38,391 nt of DNA from Candidatus Sumerlaeia bacterium (lineage in GTDB: Bacteria; Sumerlaeota; Sumerlaeia; JABWBI01): NCBI GenBank assembly GCA_013360565.1, contig JABWBI010000006.1, forward strand, positions 1 through 38,391, given 5' to 3'. A model generated the notes under the pieces. The model saw only the letters and a program-made list of their open reading frames with translations. It was not told the origin of the DNA and did not search any database. The position numbers and the translations under genes were made by a program. Position 1 is the stretch's first letter. Each line of letters begins with the position of its first letter. Below, piece after piece: positions 16,621-29,343 of the stretch.

Positions 16621-17871
16621 TCAGGCTCCGGGGCCCAACGTCGTGATGACGCGCGGCCCCTCAGCGAGGTGCCTCCGGGCGACGTCGAGGATGTCGTCTG
16701 CCGTGACCGCCTCGATCCGTGCGAGGGTCTCCTCGAGAGGGATGTGACGCCCGAAGTGGAGCTCGAGCTCGGCCAGGCGGGACATGCGGTGGTTCATGCT
16801 CTCGAGCGAGAGGAGCAGGTGCGCGCGCATCTGCTCCTTGGCGTTTCGGAGTTCGGCGGGGGAGACGGGCTCGCGGCAGACGCGGTCGATCTGCGCCCGG
16901 CAGCAGCCGAGGACCTCCGGCAGGGCCCCGGGCGACGTGCCGCCCGAGATGCCGAAGCAGCCCGAATCCTGGAAGCCCTCGAGGAATGACCCGATCGCGT
17001 AGGCGAGGCCGCGCCGCTCGCGGATCTCCTGGAAAATGCGCGACGACGTGCCACCGCCGAGGATGGAGTTGAGCAGGTTGAAAGCGTACCGGCTCTCGTC
17101 CAGGCGATTGGGCGCATCGCCGCCGAGGCAGAAGTGCATCTGCTCAGTGGATCGATGCGTGTGGCAGACGGCGTGCCCGGGAATCGGGGGGACCAGGGGG
17201 GTGCCACCGCCATTGCGCTCAACGAGATCTCCGAGGAATTCCTCGACGAGCGCGGCGGCACGGATGGGATCCACCGCGCCCGCGATGGCGACCACGAGTC
17301 GGCTGGGCAGGAACTCGTGCTCTATGAAGGTGAGGAGATCCCCCCGCCGGAGCGCCGAGACAGTCTCCGGGGTGCCGAGCACCGATCGGCCCAGGCCGTG
17401 CTCGCCCCAGAGGCTCTCCTGAAAGAGATCGTGGATCAGATCGTCGGGCGTGTCGTTCGTGAGTTTGATTTCCTCGAGGATGACCGAACGCTCTCGTTCG
17501 AGCTCGCCGTCGTCGAAGAGCGAACGGCGCAGTTGGCCGACAAGGAGCTCCAGCGCCCGCTCGAAGTGCTCATCGATGACACGCGTGTGGAGGCAGATGG
17601 TCTCCTGTGAGGTGAAGGCGTTGAAATGGCCGCCCAGCGCGTTCATGGCGAGCGCCAGACTCTCGGCGTCGTGGTCGGCCGTCCCCTTGAAGAACATGTG
17701 CTCGAGCAGGTGCGCGACGCCGTGTTTCGGGGGCGGCTCCAGGCGGGAACCCGCGGCGATCCAGAGCCCGAGCGCCACGGTGCGTGAGCCGGGCACCGGC
17801 TCGGTGACCAGACGCAGGCCATTGGGCCAGGAGTGGCGGTCGATGCCGGGGCCGATGTTCTCGCGGATCAT
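16621..17871 (-). CDS. M16 family zinc peptidase (processing-peptidase-like)
   Basis: Inverzincin metallopeptidase of the PqqL/YmxG/mitochondrial processing peptidase type. The HxxEH zinc site is HLLEH at 54-58, with the downstream glutamate ligand in SVILEEI (E133/E134). The C-terminal half has the family R/Y signature, RERRGLAYAIGSFLEGF, plus GGGTSSRIFQEIRE. Length 416 aa is that of a single catalytic subunit, and no inactive partner subunit lies nearby. There is no signal peptide, so the mature location is probably cytoplasmic. ATG 17871 has no Shine-Dalgarno but lies two or three bases after a predicted transcription start. Confidence 0.92.
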   Translation of the reverse strand: MIRENIGPGIDRHSWPNGLRLVTEPVPGSRTVALGLWIAAGSRLEPPPKHGVAHLLEHMFFKGTADHDAESLALAMNALGGHFNAFTSQETICLHTRVIDEHFERALELLVGQLRRSLFDDGELERERSVILEEIKLTNDTPDDLIHDLFQESLWGEHGLGRSVLGTPETVSALRRGDLLTFIEHEFLPSRLVVAIAGAVDPIRAAALVEEFLGDLVERNGGGTPLVPPIPGHAVCHTHRSTEQMHFCLGGDAPNRLDESRYAFNLLNSILGGGTSSRIFQEIRERRGLAYAIGSFLEGFQDSGCFGISGGTSPGALPEVLGCCRAQIDRVCREPVSPAELRNAKEQMRAHLLLSLESMNHRMSRLAELELHFGRHIPLEETLARIEAVTADDILDVARRHLAEGPRVITTLGPGA

Positions 17872-17910: not shown

Positions 17911-19356
17911 TCAGCGGTCACGCGCCGATCCCACGTCGAAGCGGGCCGCGCGGCCGGGCTCGACGATCACGCCCTCACCCGTCACTCGGCGGGCGGCCTG
18001 AGGCATCGTGACCTGGACAGTGTGCGGCCCGGGATCGACGCGGAAGAAGCCGTAGAACCCCGTGCCGTCGGTGACCATGGAGCGGACGCCGTCAAGGGTG
18101 ACCGTGGCGCCGTCCACCCAGTTGCCCTGTCCGTCGAACACTTGGCCGATCACGGCCCCCGTGTTGGGCCGCGAGCGCCAGAGGCGTGCGGGAACTTCGG
18201 CTCTCGTGGGGAAGACCTCTGCCCGGAGACGGGCGAAGTAGGCGTCTCGCGGGAGATCTTCATTGTTGGTTGTCCCGTAGTCGTAGAGCAGCACACCGTC
18301 GGCGCCCATTGCCAGAGCCTGCCGCAGCTGCGTGAAACCGTGCTCGACCGTGTTCATGTAGACACCCGCGCCGATGATGGCGTGGCGGTCGAGGCGCGTC
18401 CGGATCGCCAGGTCGGTGTAGGTGGGGAACCGCAGCGGCTGCGTGACAAAGCGCGAGTAGTTCATCAGGCAGTTCAGATCGAGGATGCCCTCGTCCATGA
18501 AGGAGACCCAGTCCTGATGCGCCTGCAGGCGGGGGCGCGACATCGGCCAGTCCCACACGCTCGTCTCGAGTCCCCAGTTGAGCGTCGAGGCGCTCACGAG
18601 GCAGCCGGGATTGGCCTCCATCACCTCGCCGTAGACGCGGCGGACCGTGGCCCGGACCTGCTCACGCCGCCAGGCCTGCCACCGTGGATCGCCGGACGCC
18701 GGGACGCCCGTCAGGTTGTTGCGCCGGTTGAACCGCTCGATGCTCACGGGGTTGTGGCCCCAGTCGCCCTCGTATTCGGGGTAGCGGACGTAGTCGAAAT
18801 GCACCCCATCGACATCATAGCGCGCCGCGACATCGCGGTAGACGGCGACCGTCCAGTCCTCGGTGATGGGATGCCCCGGATCGGCGAAGACGGAGCCCTC
18901 GCCATCGGCGTCGCCGCTGGCGCTCGTCATGACCACCTCGGGGTGCTCATGGAGCAGGTGGCCGGGCGGCGGAGCCCCCAGACTGTTGCGCCAGACGCGG
19001 AACGTGACCATCCATGCGTGCACCTCGATGCGCTGCTGGCCTCCGGATGTGTCATGACAGAGGTCAATGATCTGCTGAAGGGGGTCCCAGTCCTCGGGGC
19101 CTTGGATGTTCGACGCGCGCGGCTCGAGGCCGCCCAGGTAGTAGGCGTCGCCGACCTTGCGCACCTCGACGACGACCGCGTTCAGATTGGCGCTCCGCAC
19201 GTCGCGCACCATCTGCTCGACCTGCTCGGGCGACAGCATACCGTCGTTCCACGAGTTGACCCAGATCGCCCGGAGCTGTGGTCTCGGCTCCTGCTGAGCG
19301 GCGGCGCCGGTGGCCAGCGTGGCGGCGAGGGCGGCGAGCGCGATTCGACGTGTCAT
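17911..19356 (-). CDS. Secreted GHL10/DUF187 glycoside hydrolase-like protein
   Basis: Family-10-like glycosylhydrolase (TIM barrel) of the YngK group. ATG 19356 has GAGGAG upstream and starts a signal peptide (RRIALAALAATLATGAAA). The barrel shows RAIWVNSWND, LNAVVVEVR, VHAWMVTF and the diagnostic DGVHFDYVRYPEYEGDW. Further marks are CLVSASTLNWG, QDWVSFMDEGILD and MGADGVLLYDYGT. After about residue 400 there is a carboxypeptidase-regulatory-like beta-sandwich (GAVIGQVFDGQGNWVDGATV, TDGTGFYGFFRVDPG). Probably acts on an extracellular or periplasmic polysaccharide; the substrate is unknown. The frame is open to 20091, but that part crosses the oppositely oriented kinase gene and has no signal peptide. 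Confidence 0.88.
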   Translation of the reverse strand: MTRRIALAALAATLATGAAAQQEPRPQLRAIWVNSWNDGMLSPEQVEQMVRDVRSANLNAVVVEVRKVGDAYYLGGLEPRASNIQGPEDWDPLQQIIDLCHDTSGGQQRIEVHAWMVTFRVWRNSLGAPPPGHLLHEHPEVVMTSASGDADGEGSVFADPGHPITEDWTVAVYRDVAARYDVDGVHFDYVRYPEYEGDWGHNPVSIERFNRRNNLTGVPASGDPRWQAWRREQVRATVRRVYGEVMEANPGCLVSASTLNWGLETSVWDWPMSRPRLQAHQDWVSFMDEGILDLNCLMNYSRFVTQPLRFPTYTDLAIRTRLDRHAIIGAGVYMNTVEHGFTQLRQALAMGADGVLLYDYGTTNNEDLPRDAYFARLRAEVFPTRAEVPARLWRSRPNTGAVIGQVFDGQGNWVDGATVTLDGVRSMVTDGTGFYGFFRVDPGPHTVQVTMPQAARRVTGEGVIVEPGRAARFDVGSARDR

Positions 19357-19421: not shown

Positions 19422-19523
19422 GGGGGAAGCGCTCCGGCTTCATCTCGAATGCAGTTGCACTCATGGATGGGGTCTGGCTTGGAATCGGGTCAAGCAGCCG
19501 TGATCTGATCGAAGGAGGCCACC

Positions 19524-19694
19524 ATGGCGCAGTGCATCCACTGCGAGCATGCGACAGCGCCGGCCCGGGAGGGCATTGTCGACTGCGGGAACTCGGAGGC
19601 ACGGCGGGCGCTGGGCGACGGGACGATCGGGCAGTGCAGAGCAGGCGGTGAGAACGGCTACCCCTTCTTCGAGGACAACATGCTCCCATGGTGA
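19524..19694 (+). CDS. Small four-cysteine protein, 56 aa
   Basis: ATG 19524 is preceded by AAGGAGG six bases upstream, the strongest ribosome site in the window; stop is TGA 19692-19694. The product begins MAQCIHCEHATAP and has four cysteines, C4, C7, C21 and C38 (C-x2-C-x13-C-x16-C), with His6 and His9 nearby. This suggests a zinc or iron-sulfur site. It ends PFFEDNMLPW. The kinase gene starts seven bases later on the same strand, so the two are almost certainly cotranscribed. The family is not recognised. The cysteine spacing loosely recalls small subunits of glycyl-radical decarboxylases, but no such enzyme is nearby, so that is only a thought. Confidence 0.7.
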   Translation: MAQCIHCEHATAPAREGIVDCGNSEARRALGDGTIGQCRAGGENGYPFFEDNMLPW

Positions 19695-19701
19695 GGGCGA
19701 G

Positions 19702-20646
19702 ATGATTCACGCGCTGTCCCTCAACGCGGCCCTGGCCGAGTCCGTCTGGTTCCGCGAGCCGACGGGCAGCGTCGAGCGCGATCTGCCGATGGACTTCGGA
19801 GGACCCTCCGTGGCGTGCAAGGCCGTGAATGCGTTCCGCACGATCCAGGCCCTCGAACCAGGGCGGCACCGGCTCCTGATCTCGCTCGGTGGCGAACGTG
19901 GTCAGAGGATCGCTCATCTGCTCGGCGCGGACGGGGTCCCGCACGAGCCCCTCCCCCGGACGGTCGAGAATCGCCGCACGCTTGTCATCTTTCGGCGGCG
20001 GCGTGGAGCGGGGTACGACTCGTGGGAGTGGAAGGGCGAAGCCCGGCTGAGCGCCAGTGAGCTGGCCGCGCTTGTGGACCGTGTCAGCCATGTGGCCCTT
20101 CGGGGAACCCTCGTGCTCGTCTCCGGCACGCCGCCGGCTCTGCCAAGGGAGTTCAGCTGGAGTCCCCTTTTCGATGCACTGGGTGCCGCCGGTGCGCGAG
20201 TGGTTCTCGACTCATCTCAGTGGCGGGCCGTCATGGCCGGCGGTTTCACGCCCTGGGTCCTGAAAATCAATCGAGCGGAGTGGGGGAGAGGAGCGCCGAC
20301 TCAGCGGCTCCTGGTGTCGCAGATGCAGCGACTTGCCCGGCGCCGCTCGATGCACGCGGTCATCGTCACGGATGGCAGACGCGGGGCCCATGCGGCGACC
20401 GCGGACGCCGCCTGGCGCGTCTGGCTCGAGCCCCGGGAGGGGGTGGTGTACCCGATCGGCAGCGGCGATGCCTTCGCCGGAGGCCTCTGCGTCGCACTCG
20501 ACCGGGGCGAGTCGATTGAGAAGGCGCTCGAGCTCGCCACGCTGTGCGCATTCGAGAATCTGAGTTCACCCCAGCCGGGCGAAGTCGACCCGGCGCGGTT
20601 CAAGCACTGGGCCAAGCGGGTGAACGTCCGGCGATTGGCCGGCTGA
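19702..20646 (+). CDS. PfkB-family sugar kinase (LacC/FruK-like, divergent)
   Basis: Ribokinase-fold carbohydrate kinase, 314 aa, closest in style to 1-phosphofructokinase/tagatose-6-phosphate kinase: the N-terminus MIHALSLNAALAES mirrors the SLNPALD start of that branch. The ATP and catalytic-base motif is present as GSGD at 253-256 (IGSGDAFAGGL), and LKINRAEW (187-194) corresponds to the family KPNxxE. The substrate loop that normally reads GGKGxNVA is GGPSVACKAVNA, so substrate specificity may differ. ATG 19702 is taken because it directly follows the small cysteine-protein gene; earlier codons in this frame overlap that gene. The stop abuts the convergent rhodanese gene. Confidence 0.82.
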   Translation: MIHALSLNAALAESVWFREPTGSVERDLPMDFGGPSVACKAVNAFRTIQALEPGRHRLLISLGGERGQRIAHLLGADGVPHEPLPRTVENRRTLVIFRRRRGAGYDSWEWKGEARLSASELAALVDRVSHVALRGTLVLVSGTPPALPREFSWSPLFDALGAAGARVVLDSSQWRAVMAGGFTPWVLKINRAEWGRGAPTQRLLVSQMQRLARRRSMHAVIVTDGRRGAHAATADAAWRVWLEPREGVVYPIGSGDAFAGGLCVALDRGESIEKALELATLCAFENLSSPQPGEVDPARFKHWAKRVNVRRLAG

Positions 20647-20652
20647 TCAGCC
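20641..20652. other. 12-bp palindrome at a convergent stop junction
   Basis: GGCTGATCAGCC, identical to the core of the palindrome at 16068-16081 and in the same context: back-to-back TGA stops of the kinase (20644-20646) and the rhodanese (20647-20649). Confidence 0.7.
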
Positions 20653-21057
20653 CCGCTCGCGGGGACCTGTCCAGGCGTGAATGCCCCCCGTCAGGTTGCT
20701 CACGTCCGTGAAGCCGTTGTCGAGGAGGTAGCAGCCCACATCATACGAGCGCATGCCCGAGGCGCACTGCACGACGATGGGGCGTGTCCTGTCGAGCTCG
20801 GCCTCCCGCCCCTGGAACGTGCTCATGGGCATGTGAACCGAGCCGGGAATCCAGCCGTCGCTGGCCAGCTCCGGGGCCTCGCGGACGTCGATGAGAATCG
20901 GCGAATCTGGGCCCTGCATCCGTGCTGCGAGCTCGGCGGCGGTGATCTCTTTGGGCTCCCTGGAATCCATGGCGGACACCGGTTTCTCCTGTGTCGGTCG
21001 CGGCGGTGGTGCGGACGGCGGCGCCGCCTTGCCGAAGAGTCTGTTCAGTAGGCCCAC
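20647..21057 (-). CDS. Rhodanese-like domain protein
   Basis: Single rhodanese domain (136 aa) after a short Pro/Ala-rich N-terminus. The persulfide-forming cysteine is C98 in the loop CASGMRS (98-104); IDVREAPELASDGWIPGSVHMP and the C-terminal NLTGGIHAWTG complete the domain. It may carry sulfane sulfur or serve as a sulfur- or phosphate-binding partner. GTG 21057 lies 12 bp after the DUF4340 gene, so it is likely the last gene of the ABC-system operon. No secretion signal, hence cytoplasmic. Confidence 0.9.
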   Translation of the reverse strand: MGLLNRLFGKAAPPSAPPPRPTQEKPVSAMDSREPKEITAAELAARMQGPDSPILIDVREAPELASDGWIPGSVHMPMSTFQGREAELDRTRPIVVQCASGMRSYDVGCYLLDNGFTDVSNLTGGIHAWTGPRERG

Positions 21058-21069
21058 GGAAGTCGCCCG

Positions 21070-22668
21070 TCACTCGATCTCGGGCGACGCGGGGGCTGCC
21101 GCTTCGGGAGAGCTGGCCTGATCTGCCGGGGCCTCACCGGGAGCCTCGACCCCGGGCTCGGGCGAGGGATCAGCGGCTGTCAGCGGGCCACTCTCATCGG
21201 CGGTGTCTCCCAGCCCGAGTGCGTCCAGGTCCAGGGCGAGGTTATCCCCCCGCCACTGCTCGAGGAAGAGGACGGCACTCCGCCCGCTGCGGCGGATCGC
21301 CCGTCCCTGCGTCCCTGAACGCTCGATCTCTGATCCCAGTTCCAGCACCACAGGCTCGTCCTGCCCCTCCAGCGACACGGTCATGGTGATCTCAGGCGGA
21401 TCGAGGCCGAGGGCGGCCAGGTCGTCCGTCTCGTCTTCCGGGATGACCTCGCGCGCGCGCAGCAGGCGCAGCGAGTCAGTCAAGTTGCGCAGAGGTTCGG
21501 CGGCCTCCTCAGAGCTGTGGCTCGGGGGCGGATCGACCAGCGTCCAGCCCTCCTCGGGGCTTGCTGGTAGCCACGTCCAGGTCCGCCCCCGGCGCTCGTA
21601 GCGCAGCGCGGTGATCTCCTCGGGGTCGATCTCGGTCACAATCTTCGAGCGGAGCCGATCTGGATTCTCGAGGGCGGCGGAGAGGGCGTCGACGGTGATG
21701 GAGACAATGGCGGTGCCGTTCTCCAGCATTGCCGGTCGCTCGCTGTCACGCTCGCGCCCAATCAGCAGACGGCGCGTCACGCGGCCGGTTCCCTCGGCGG
21801 TCACCACGGTGAAGCTGTACTCCGGTGAGGCCAGACCGCGGCCGGCGATCTGTTCGGGTGTGACGTCCTCGGCGAGGAAATCGGTTGCCCGGACGTTGCT
21901 GATCATCGACAGAGTGCTGTTGATCTCCGCGGGGTCCGCGTCGTCCTCCACAGGGACGCTGAGCCGCCACGGGGCCTCGGGATCGGCGCGTTCGGCGCGG
22001 TAGACGATCTCGCCCGAGGCATCCGAGAGCGAGAGTGCGACGGCCTCCTCCTGGTCGATGCGAAGGATCTGCTTGTCGCGCAGATCATGGAGGGAGCGAT
22101 TGAGCGCCGCGTCCCGGTTCTGAAGCACGAGGACTTCGTCATCTCCCTCGATCATGCCGAACATGAAGCTTCCCGTGGGGTCCTGGTCGCCGACGAGCAG
22201 CGTCTGGACAGACGCCTCGCCGTCGTAGCGAAGACCCACGCGCAGAACAGCGGCCTCGAGTCCGAAATTGGCCAGCTCGCCGGAGCTCACATCGGTGAAG
22301 ACATTGTCCTCGACGGGGCCAGCCAGCTGCAGGCCGACCAGCGTCGACACCAGCGAGTCGACCGTGGAGTTGTCGGCCCCCGTCGCGCGCGGGGCCGTGA
22401 TGCGCCACGATCCGGTGGCCGACCCTTCCTCCGGGGAAGGGTCCCGCGCCAGGACGATCTCCACGCTCGATCCGCGCGGCGTCAGGCGCACCTCGGCCAC
22501 GGCGTCGCGCAGGACAGCGTTGTCCTCCTCCTCACCACGGGGAAAGACTCGCAGCGACAGGCGATCCGAGCGCTCCTTGGCCTCCTCCTGCTCTCGCGAT
22601 GCGCTGTAGTACCAAGTGAGCCCCGCCGCGATGGCCAGCAGGACAAAGTACTGGACGGCGGTCTTCAT
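21070..22668 (-). CDS. DUF4340 domain protein, membrane-anchored
   Basis: An N-terminal membrane anchor (YFVLLAIAAGLTWYYSA) precedes an exported region with repeated DUF4340-like units: TLVGLQLAGPVEDN, DLRDKQILRIDQEE, LASPEYSFTVVTAEG, RLRSKIVTEIDPEEITAL and LGLDPPEITMTVSLEG. The tail (about the last 50 residues) is a Pro/Ala/Glu-rich linker. DUF4340 proteins are regularly encoded beside GldG-like ABC auxiliary proteins, as here, and are presumed periplasmic parts of that system; the molecular role is unknown. ATG 22668 overlaps the gldG-like stop as ATGA. Confidence 0.85.
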   Translation of the reverse strand: MKTAVQYFVLLAIAAGLTWYYSASREQEEAKERSDRLSLRVFPRGEEEDNAVLRDAVAEVRLTPRGSSVEIVLARDPSPEEGSATGSWRITAPRATGADNSTVDSLVSTLVGLQLAGPVEDNVFTDVSSGELANFGLEAAVLRVGLRYDGEASVQTLLVGDQDPTGSFMFGMIEGDDEVLVLQNRDAALNRSLHDLRDKQILRIDQEEAVALSLSDASGEIVYRAERADPEAPWRLSVPVEDDADPAEINSTLSMISNVRATDFLAEDVTPEQIAGRGLASPEYSFTVVTAEGTGRVTRRLLIGRERDSERPAMLENGTAIVSITVDALSAALENPDRLRSKIVTEIDPEEITALRYERRGRTWTWLPASPEEGWTLVDPPPSHSSEEAAEPLRNLTDSLRLLRAREVIPEDETDDLAALGLDPPEITMTVSLEGQDEPVVLELGSEIERSGTQGRAIRRSGRSAVLFLEQWRGDNLALDLDALGLGDTADESGPLTAADPSPEPGVEAPGEAPADQASSPEAAAPASPEIE

Positions 22669-24551
22669 GCCAGTCTCCTGCGGCGGACCGCGACGATGAC
22701 GCCGGACATGGCGGTGAGAACCGGCATGGCGATCAGGATCACAAGGAGCAGGCGTGCCTGGAGTGCCGAGAGCTCGAAGCCGGTGTTGAGGGAATCCCGC
22801 GGACGGATGGCGATCAGGTCCGTGTCGGCCGCCAAGTAGTTCATCGCGTTCAGCACGAAGTCCCGGTTGCCCCCGCGGCCAGGGATCATGAGCGGGTCAT
22901 AGAGAACCGTCGCGTCGCCGATGACGAGCAGCCGCGCCGGGGGGGCGGTGGCGGTCTCCCCAGCCGCGTCCTCCGGGGACGCGGCCGCCGCTGCCACTGC
23001 GTCCTCCCCATGATCGTGGCCATCATCTTCGGAGTGATCGTGTCCTTCGTCCACGGCGCCACCCGGCTCCGGAATCTCGTCCATGCTCAGCCCCATGTCG
23101 GGCGGCGTGTCGGACACGGGCATCGGCTCTGGGGCCGGCGGCACGGCAGCGTCCTCCGGTGAGGAGACAATGGTGACGGTCCCCAGAGGCATCGCCCCCG
23201 GCATCGTCGCCGGAGTGAAGACGGCTGGATGCTCGTTGACATCGACCGTGAAGAGCTGCGCCACGGGGGCTGCAGTCGCAATCGGATCGTTCCCTGGAGT
23301 GACCTGCCCTTGGCGGAATCGGTCGAGATCGGCCTCCGCCCACGAGTTTCGCGAGGCGCTGATTAGCAGCTCGGCATCCACGCCCGGGGGGAGCGTGGGC
23401 GCGGCCGAGACCGACCGGGCGAGATAGAACGAGACAGGGTTGATGAGATCCTTCGTGATGTCGCTGGACTCGCTCAGGTTGACCGCGTCGAAGTTGAAGG
23501 AGACCTGATCGACGAGACCCTGGGTGAAGCTCAGCGCCGCACTGCGCTCGACGACGACATCCTTGCCGACCTGGATGCCGAACTGGCCGAAGAAGTCGAC
23601 CAGGGCGGTGTCCGCCAGTCCGTCCAGCAGAGGCTCCACATCGATGCAGGCGAAGACCTGGCCACCGCGGTTGATGTGGCTGGCGAGCGCCGCGAGGTCC
23701 GTGTCGCCGAAGCTGTACTCCGGATCGGCGATGATCAGCACCTGGCAGTCGTCGGGGACCTCCGGGCTCTCGGTCAGGTTGAGCGTGTGAACCGTGAACT
23801 GCTCGCTCTCGAGCCCCCGTCTCAGCTCGCTGAAGCTGAAGCCCGTCTGCTCGTTGGGGGTGAAGATGTCCTCTCCCCGGCGGGTGACGATGTACGCGCC
23901 CTTCTGTTCCTCCCGGGTGACCGCGATGATGGCCCGCGTGATCTTCTCCTCCAGGTCGGTGATCTCGCGGTACGACTCGACCTGGACCGTGCGGTCGCCC
24001 ATTGTCACGTAGATGTTGCCCTCCATGGGGTTGGGCAGATCGCGGACCGCCTCGGGATTCCGGCGCGCGCTCACGACGCGGTAGTTCACGCGCCCCGACG
24101 CCGAGCGGTAGAGATCCATCTGGCGGGCGAAGAGAGTGGCGAACAGATCGCTGTCAGTCGCCAGGTCCCCGCGCGAGATGGCCGTCACCATCACGTCCCC
24201 GTCGAGGGCGGAGACGACCTGGAGGCTCTGAGGCGCGAGCGAGAAGCGGCGATTCTGGGTCGTGTCCCACTGGATGCGCTTGCCGGTGATGACGACGTTC
24301 ACCATGACGATGATGAAGCCGACGATGAGGCTCAGGGCGAAGAGATTGACGCCGTAGCGGGCCGAGCGGCTGGTGGCGAGCCGGACGATGTTCTTGGCGT
24401 TGAAGACGAGCCACACCAGGCCGAGGATGGCGGCGGCGGCGAGGGGGACGATGACCCACAGCGGGGAGTCGACGTCGAGCCCGAGGTACTTGGTGGCGAG
24501 TCCGACGGCGGCCGAGAAGACCGCGACGATGCCGAGAATGTTCACCCACAT
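22665..24551 (-). CDS. GldG-like ABC transporter auxiliary protein
   Basis: Large membrane protein of the Gldg/ABC_transp_aux family. N-terminal membrane segments (LGIVAVFSAAVGLATKYLG; VIVPLAAAAILGLVWLVF; LFALSLIVGFIIVMVNVVI) are followed by the marker KRIQWDTTQNRRFSLAPQSLQVV and a long periplasmic domain (LEEKITRAIIAVTRE, ADPEYSFGDTDLAALASHINRGGQV). A C-terminal membrane segment (ARLLLVILIAMPVLTAMSGVIVAV) closes the protein. Inserted before the last conserved block (LLVIGDATVLYDP) is a Pro/Ala/Asp/Glu-rich linker with the His-rich sequence GHDHSEDDGHDHGED, a plausible metal-binding tract. In Bacteroidota, GldG works with GldA and GldF; in other phyla the function is unsettled. Confidence 0.87.
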   Translation of the reverse strand: MWVNILGIVAVFSAAVGLATKYLGLDVDSPLWVIVPLAAAAILGLVWLVFNAKNIVRLATSRSARYGVNLFALSLIVGFIIVMVNVVITGKRIQWDTTQNRRFSLAPQSLQVVSALDGDVMVTAISRGDLATDSDLFATLFARQMDLYRSASGRVNYRVVSARRNPEAVRDLPNPMEGNIYVTMGDRTVQVESYREITDLEEKITRAIIAVTREEQKGAYIVTRRGEDIFTPNEQTGFSFSELRRGLESEQFTVHTLNLTESPEVPDDCQVLIIADPEYSFGDTDLAALASHINRGGQVFACIDVEPLLDGLADTALVDFFGQFGIQVGKDVVVERSAALSFTQGLVDQVSFNFDAVNLSESSDITKDLINPVSFYLARSVSAAPTLPPGVDAELLISASRNSWAEADLDRFRQGQVTPGNDPIATAAPVAQLFTVDVNEHPAVFTPATMPGAMPLGTVTIVSSPEDAAVPPAPEPMPVSDTPPDMGLSMDEIPEPGGAVDEGHDHSEDDGHDHGEDAVAAAAASPEDAAGETATAPPARLLVIGDATVLYDPLMIPGRGGNRDFVLNAMNYLAADTDLIAIRPRDSLNTGFELSALQARLLLVILIAMPVLTAMSGVIVAVRRRRLA

Positions 24552-28215: not shown

Positions 28216-29343
28216 ATGCCCCGCCTCCCTGCTGTGATCTGTGCCGCTGTGGGAGCCCTGTGCCTGGGCCCAAGGGCACATTCGCAGCCGGTCGACCTCG
28301 AACCTGGGCTCCTTCAGGACGTCTCTCAGCCTCAGGTGGCGGCTGGCCCGGGAGGCGAAGTCCACCTTGTCCACCTCGGAGAGTTCGCCGGCGGCATGGC
28401 GGTGGCCCACCGGGCCTGGAGCGGCGGCCGGTGGGGAGACGAGGAGATCGTCTCGGCCTCGGGGGGCTCGCTCTTCGATCCTCAGGTGACTGTCAGCGCC
28501 GATGGCACCGTTCACGTCGTCTGGTCGACGGAGTCACCGGCTCATGTCCTGCACGCCTTTCTCCGCGACGGGGTCTGGAGTGTCCCCGCGAATCTCTCCG
28601 AGGGACTGCCGGGGGCCTCGGAGTTCCCCTCGCTCGCGGCGCGCCCCAGCGGCGCCGTCGATGTTGTCTGGCAGACTCTCGCCGGGACCCAGTTTCAGGT
28701 GGTGCACGCCGAGGTCGCGCCCAGCGGGCGGCGAGTCACGATGGCGCCGATCAGCGCGCAGAATCCGCGGGCGGCCAATCGCTATCCGCAGGTTTTCTCA
28801 AGTCCCGTTCCCATCGTGGCCTGGTATGAAGCGGTGGACGGCGACCTGATGCTCCGGGTGGCCGAGCAGATTCCTGGCAACGAGTGGCGCCTCCTTCCCG
28901 TGATCGATCTGCTCCAGGTTGATCTCAACCGCCTTCCCTATCTGTTGCTCAGCGACCTGGGGACATGGGCCGCGCTCTGGCACGATGCCGCGCCTCACCA
29001 TGACCGGGTGCTCTTCGGCAGAGGAGGCCCCCCCGGCTTCGGCCTGGGTGTGGCCGTTGACAGCAATCCCGAGGTCGACAATGTCGCCCCGTGTGCCACG
29101 TCGCTCGGGGATGACCTCTGGGCCATCGCATGGCGTGCGGAGGAATCGGAGGGGGCGGAGATCTACGTGGCGGTCGAGTCACTCGACGGCTGGGTTCAGG
29201 AGAACCTGAGCCGGGGAATGACACCGGCGGCCGCACAGCCCGCCGCTGTGGCCTCAGGCGGACTTCTGCATGTCGTCTGGGTCTCCGACGCGGACGCCGG
29301 CGGGACGGGGGCGCTCGTCTCCACGACGGTCCCCATGGAGTGA
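28216..29343 (+). CDS. Secreted beta-propeller (BNR/sialidase-like) protein
   Basis: ATG 28216 is chosen for its AAGGA site and because the signal peptide (RLPAVICAAVGALCLGPRAHS) starts there; ATG 28192 is an in-frame alternative. The 375-aa product repeats a blade pattern of V-x-V-V-W followed by variable loops: DGTVHVVWSTE, SGAVDVVWQT, PVPIVAWYEAVDG, DDLWAIAWRAEE and GGLLHVVWVSD. This resembles six-bladed sialidase-superfamily propellers, but no Asp-box set or catalytic Arg triad is complete, so no activity is proposed. It precedes the signalling operon by 53 nt on the same strand, so read-through is possible. Confidence 0.7.
   Translation: MPRLPAVICAAVGALCLGPRAHSQPVDLEPGLLQDVSQPQVAAGPGGEVHLVHLGEFAGGMAVAHRAWSGGRWGDEEIVSASGGSLFDPQVTVSADGTVHVVWSTESPAHVLHAFLRDGVWSVPANLSEGLPGASEFPSLAARPSGAVDVVWQTLAGTQFQVVHAEVAPSGRRVTMAPISAQNPRAANRYPQVFSSPVPIVAWYEAVDGDLMLRVAEQIPGNEWRLLPVIDLLQVDLNRLPYLLLSDLGTWAALWHDAAPHHDRVLFGRGGPPGFGLGVAVDSNPEVDNVAPCATSLGDDLWAIAWRAEESEGAEIYVAVESLDGWVQENLSRGMTPAAAQPAAVASGGLLHVVWVSDADAGGTGALVSTTVPME

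Follow-up and report, generated by a model that had tools for sequence, protein, structure and literature searches.

A probable orphan family of small cysteine proteins and a PfkB-family kinase gene at one locus of a Candidatus Sumerlaeia bacterium

The cysteine miniprotein encoded directly ahead of a PfkB-family kinase gene in a Candidatus Sumerlaeia bacterium is, judged from the sequences of its relatives, a genuine small protein. It probably belongs to a small, likely metal-binding orphan family that is older than the linkage to the kinase, and the copy described here would be a divergent member behind which an incoming kinase gene landed. The gene lies within a stretch of 38,391 nucleotides (contig JABWBI010000006.1; hereafter the window). 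An earlier note on this DNA had proposed that the miniprotein is coupled to the kinase as a metal- or iron-sulfur-binding partner; this coupling is not supported by the only other genome of the class in which a homologue was found. The source genome is a draft (82% complete, 422 contigs), the comparison set of the class comprises 38 other genomes, and the evidence for the family comes from four sequences in two draft assemblies.

The miniprotein gene and its relatives

The locus contains the following features:
16621..17871, minus strand: M16 peptidase (PF00675/PF05193), a conserved neighbour in the sister genome G001 (L022 4925-6325; blastn match)
17911..19356, minus strand: GHL10 glycosyl-hydrolase-like protein (PF02638), divergent to the miniprotein gene; the G001 counterpart is 68% identical and in the same position
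19512..19518, plus strand: Shine-Dalgarno sequence AAGGAGG, 5 nt 5' of the miniprotein ATG
19524..19694, plus strand: cysteine miniprotein of 56 amino acids, diverged from the other members of its family-restricted small-protein family (conserved: C4, C7, H9 and C21; private: C38)
19702..20646, plus strand: PfkB-family kinase of 314 amino acids (PF00294), 1-phosphofructokinase/hexose-kinase-like
20647..21057, minus strand: rhodanese-domain protein (PF00581), convergent with the kinase gene, the stop codons abutting
21070..22668, minus strand: protein that we take to be DUF4340-like by resemblance, a conserved neighbour in G001 (tblastn to L034/L064)

The earlier description of the frame proved accurate. 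Starting with an ATG, it has 56 codons with cysteines at positions 4, 7, 21 and 38 (C-x2-C-x13-C-x16-C), and its TGA, with 19694 as the last base, is separated from the ATG of the kinase at 19702 by exactly 7 bases. The statement that it has the best ribosome site of the window holds for the core motif with its spacing, as this is the only perfect AAGGAGG at normal distance before an ATG in the whole window (the other perfect AAGGAGG, at 28896 on the minus strand, stands ahead of a TTG); by raw duplex energy, however, the start ranks only 57th of 2831 start codons in a cruder scan that applies no spacing rule. The suggestion that automated gene calling could miss the gene is weak, since its 57 codons exceed the usual lower limit of gene callers; the lower size limit of Prodigal is 90 nt. 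Simple scans found neither a promoter nor a terminator around the miniprotein-kinase pair, and there was no match in Rfam.

The same genome carries a second full copy of the miniprotein on contig C112 (45% identity, E = 1.6e-10) and a third, partial copy on contig C410. In the 38 other class genomes, a single homologue turned up (E = 2e-8), in G001, a genome from the same family but a different genus. An alignment of the three full copies spans 55 residues with zero gaps, and cysteines 4, 7 and 21 are conserved in it. The dN/dS ratios of all pairs are about 0.3 to 0.55; for the three full-length pairs they are 0.44, 0.33 and 0.32 (NG86; 0.47/1.07, 0.54/1.66 and 0.38/1.19), and the sense frame gives a higher protein similarity (BLOSUM score) than any of the other five frames. 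Because homologues exist and are under purifying selection, the frame represents a real gene rather than a chance reading frame. Antisense coding at this site was rejected: one antisense frame, well conserved and free of stops at the C112 copy, is interrupted by a stop codon in both the window and G001, and all antisense frames score below the sense frame. At the C112 locus itself, a minus-strand DUF1573 frame (L020 3852-4604) is open across the entire antisense of the miniprotein, the frames overlapping tail to tail. The C410 copy is 90% identical to the C112 copy at the DNA level over 111 bp, with the likeness stopping right at the stop codon; in this region (L021 2178-3130), it lacks the N-terminal half with the CxxC motif where an IS4/5-type transposase gene lies. 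Its final residue is Cys, where the other copies have Trp.

More members may exist than those described here, as a species-level genome collection of 257 billion bases was scanned with exact peptide patterns taken from the window copy, which is divergent. Several candidates from the searches were discarded. L006 (Azospirillaceae, 46% over 41 residues) was retrieved from this large collection via a shared 8-residue pattern, has no CxxC part, reaches a profile score of 10 bits and was taken as chance, as were L015 and L016, which match at 22-23 positions within longer frames (E ~0.002). An intact matching frame or the cysteine pattern is missing in L008, L011 and L012, and L017 is the antisense of a long, apparently real gene.

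Divergence of the window copy

In the genomes searched, the family of proteins of about 55-63 residues with the pattern CxxCxH ... C-x-C ... AGGEHDCPxFEDDxLPW is confined to two genera of one bacterial family. The intact members, C112 and G001, have C4, C7, H9, C21, C23, H44 and C46 in common (window numbering). From this residue pattern we lean slightly towards metal binding by the intact members, which would most likely bind a single metal (zinc or an iron-sulfur cluster) via CxxCxH, CxC and HDC, and which may function on their own as a small metal or redox/binding module. The window copy retains C4, C7, H9 and C21, but has N23, N44 and Y46 instead of C23, H44 and C46. Thus, only part of the four-cysteine site proposed in the earlier note has stood up: C4, C7 and C21 are conserved, whereas the residue at position 38 is Cys in the window, Tyr in C112 and Phe in G001, and the window has Asn and Tyr in place of the family cysteines 23 and 46. 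The five-cysteine pattern of the family (CxxC, CxC, CP) is therefore reduced to C4, C7 and C21; the ungapped similarity with AGGE and the PxFED..LPW end is retained, the C-terminal end reading AGGE...PFFED.MLPW. With two family cysteines and His44 gone, the metal site would have been altered from its original form or lost altogether, and metal binding by the window copy itself is doubtful.

The window copy is the fastest evolving of the three. At sites at which C112 and G001 agree, it has 12 private changes, including C23N, H44N and C46Y, versus one private change in C112 at sites where the window matches G001 (binomial P = 0.003). It is odd that the window copy, and not C112, is the positional orthologue of the G001 gene. 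Since an intact paralogue exists with C112, the constraint on the syntenic copy may have been relaxed, and the window copy could be a decaying duplicate that is losing its metal site and mainly serves as a translated leader for the kinase. Its fast evolution and the missing cysteines and His44 agree with such a decay, and the C410 copy of the same genome, without its N-terminal half and next to a transposase gene, is already broken. We nevertheless consider decay unlikely: the frame in the window is intact and preceded by a strong ribosome site, dN/dS is still below 1 in the comparisons with the intact copies (0.44 and 0.33), and the C-terminal end is retained.

The kinase and its probable arrival at the locus

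With a PF00294 match above the cut-off (E = 6e-20), the kinase is a member of the PfkB family, and it is indeed divergent, as the earlier note had recognized. An alignment with ten distant homologues revealed that the GxGD catalytic motif is kept as GSGD, while LNPxLD reads LNAALA and GGKGxN is disrupted. The protein is most similar to the 1-phosphofructokinase/tagatose-6-phosphate kinase group, with which it shares PF00294, a match to TIGR03168 (E = 8e-27, below the cut-off) and GxGD; however, it differs from this group in the altered LNPxLD and GGKGxN motifs and in its NCBIfam scores, all of which are far under the cut-offs (TIGR03828, 1-phosphofructokinase: 83.4 versus 292 bits). Because of the two altered motifs, its substrate probably differs from that of the 1-phosphofructokinase group. 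No match at E<=1e-10 was found in any of the 38 other genomes of the class, and the best matches in a wider set of 386 genomes are 26-31% identical. The GC3 of 0.81 resembles that of the neighbouring genes and gives no sign of recent import.

In G001, the M16 peptidase gene is followed by an extra gene and then by the GHL10, miniprotein, rhodanese and DUF4340-like genes, and the relative strands match those of the window. The kinase gene is absent, and the rhodanese gene is directly convergent with the miniprotein gene; the gap between their stop codons is 5 bp in G001 versus 952 bp in the window, where it holds the whole kinase gene. The C112 copy has other neighbours, namely glycine dehydrogenase (GDC-P) and DUF1573 genes. 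The search for homologues next to PfkB genes, which the earlier note had suggested, hence found no kinase at either site, and no close relative of the kinase turned up in the other class genomes either, so that the proposed coupling finds no counterpart. In the fetched loci of other families of the class, no miniprotein was found beside GHL10 or rhodanese genes. GHL10 proteins are present in 38 of 39 class genomes, with up to 19 matches in G003, an apparent expansion. Upstream of the DUF4340-like gene, positions 22665-24551 encode a long membrane-type protein that resembles the gliding/ABC-transporter auxiliary type.

The shared synteny places the miniprotein gene between GHL10 and rhodanese already in the common ancestor of the two genera. 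In the lineage of the window, a kinase gene of the PfkB type then probably came in from elsewhere, between the miniprotein and rhodanese genes, as its absence from the rest of the class suggests. Entry in the lineage of the window is a simpler assumption than loss elsewhere, because the other class genomes contain no such kinase and the 386 genomes only distant relatives; with four sequences from two draft assemblies, the choice between a gain here and a loss in G001 rests on this absence of the kinase from the rest of the class. Given the spacing, the kinase now probably rides on the miniprotein transcript and its strong ribosome site. The window copy would have changed fast afterwards, with two of five family cysteines and His44 being lost and the metal site altered or lost.

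It is very improbable that the miniprotein is a dedicated metal- or FeS-binding partner translationally coupled to the kinase, and as an ancestral pairing this is largely refuted. The same strand and short spacing, the four cysteines and the divergence of both proteins would fit a partnership; however, the orthologue and the paralogue have no adjacent kinase gene, the kinase has no orthologues in the class, and C38 is unconserved. A special metal-binding partner is not supported, because the kinase is absent from the matching site in G001 and two family cysteines are lost here. We give just as little credence to co-evolution after the arrival of the kinase, during which the miniprotein would have swapped its metal site (loss of C23 and C46, gain of C38) and the kinase would have lost its sugar-binding motifs; if true, the result would be a two-part metal-dependent or redox-regulated kinase in this lineage only. 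A chance open frame in GC-rich DNA, where other frames of the stretch are open in places too, can practically be dismissed in view of the homologues in another genus, the synonymous excess and the conserved position.

Comparison with known systems and significance

The miniprotein has no significant match in Pfam, NCBIfam, PHROG, PADLOC or PDB, and no match was obtained in phage, plasmid and viral collections or in an anti-phage library. Single-sequence folding of the miniprotein reached a pLDDT of 45, and the predictions for both the miniprotein and the kinase were too poor to use. Residues 3-22 of the window copy, which span the CxxC motif, weakly resemble the DmmA-like C-terminal domain (PF22289; E = 0.016); however, the 15.6 bits stay below the gathering score of 27.4, and the other three copies do not match. 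HiPIP-like folds are described for the small 4Fe-4S accessory subunits of glycyl radical enzymes, namely BSS beta/gamma, HPAD gamma and MASS beta/gamma (PMC12358834). Like the miniprotein, they are small and contain few cysteines, which in their case bind the cluster; in contrast, neither of the two profiles of the miniprotein found a sequence match among solved structures. The neighbours examined included no gene for a glycyl radical enzyme. The family also recalls the lineage-specific small proteins of microbiomes catalogued in GMSC, which are likewise small, confined to related genera and devoid of a domain assignment: more than half of the 96.7 million GMSC families are genus-specific, and 6.1% of the small protein families contain a CDD domain (PMC11364881). 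Small proteins that are restricted to related genera and have no known domain are the common case (PMC11364881).

Close spacing by itself can suggest a functional pair; here, the coupling falls away in view of a single sister genome in which the neighbourhood is the same but lacks the kinase. The family of small cysteine proteins documented here is not covered by any Pfam or NCBIfam model, and the miniprotein joins the very large number of small lineage-restricted proteins without a known function.
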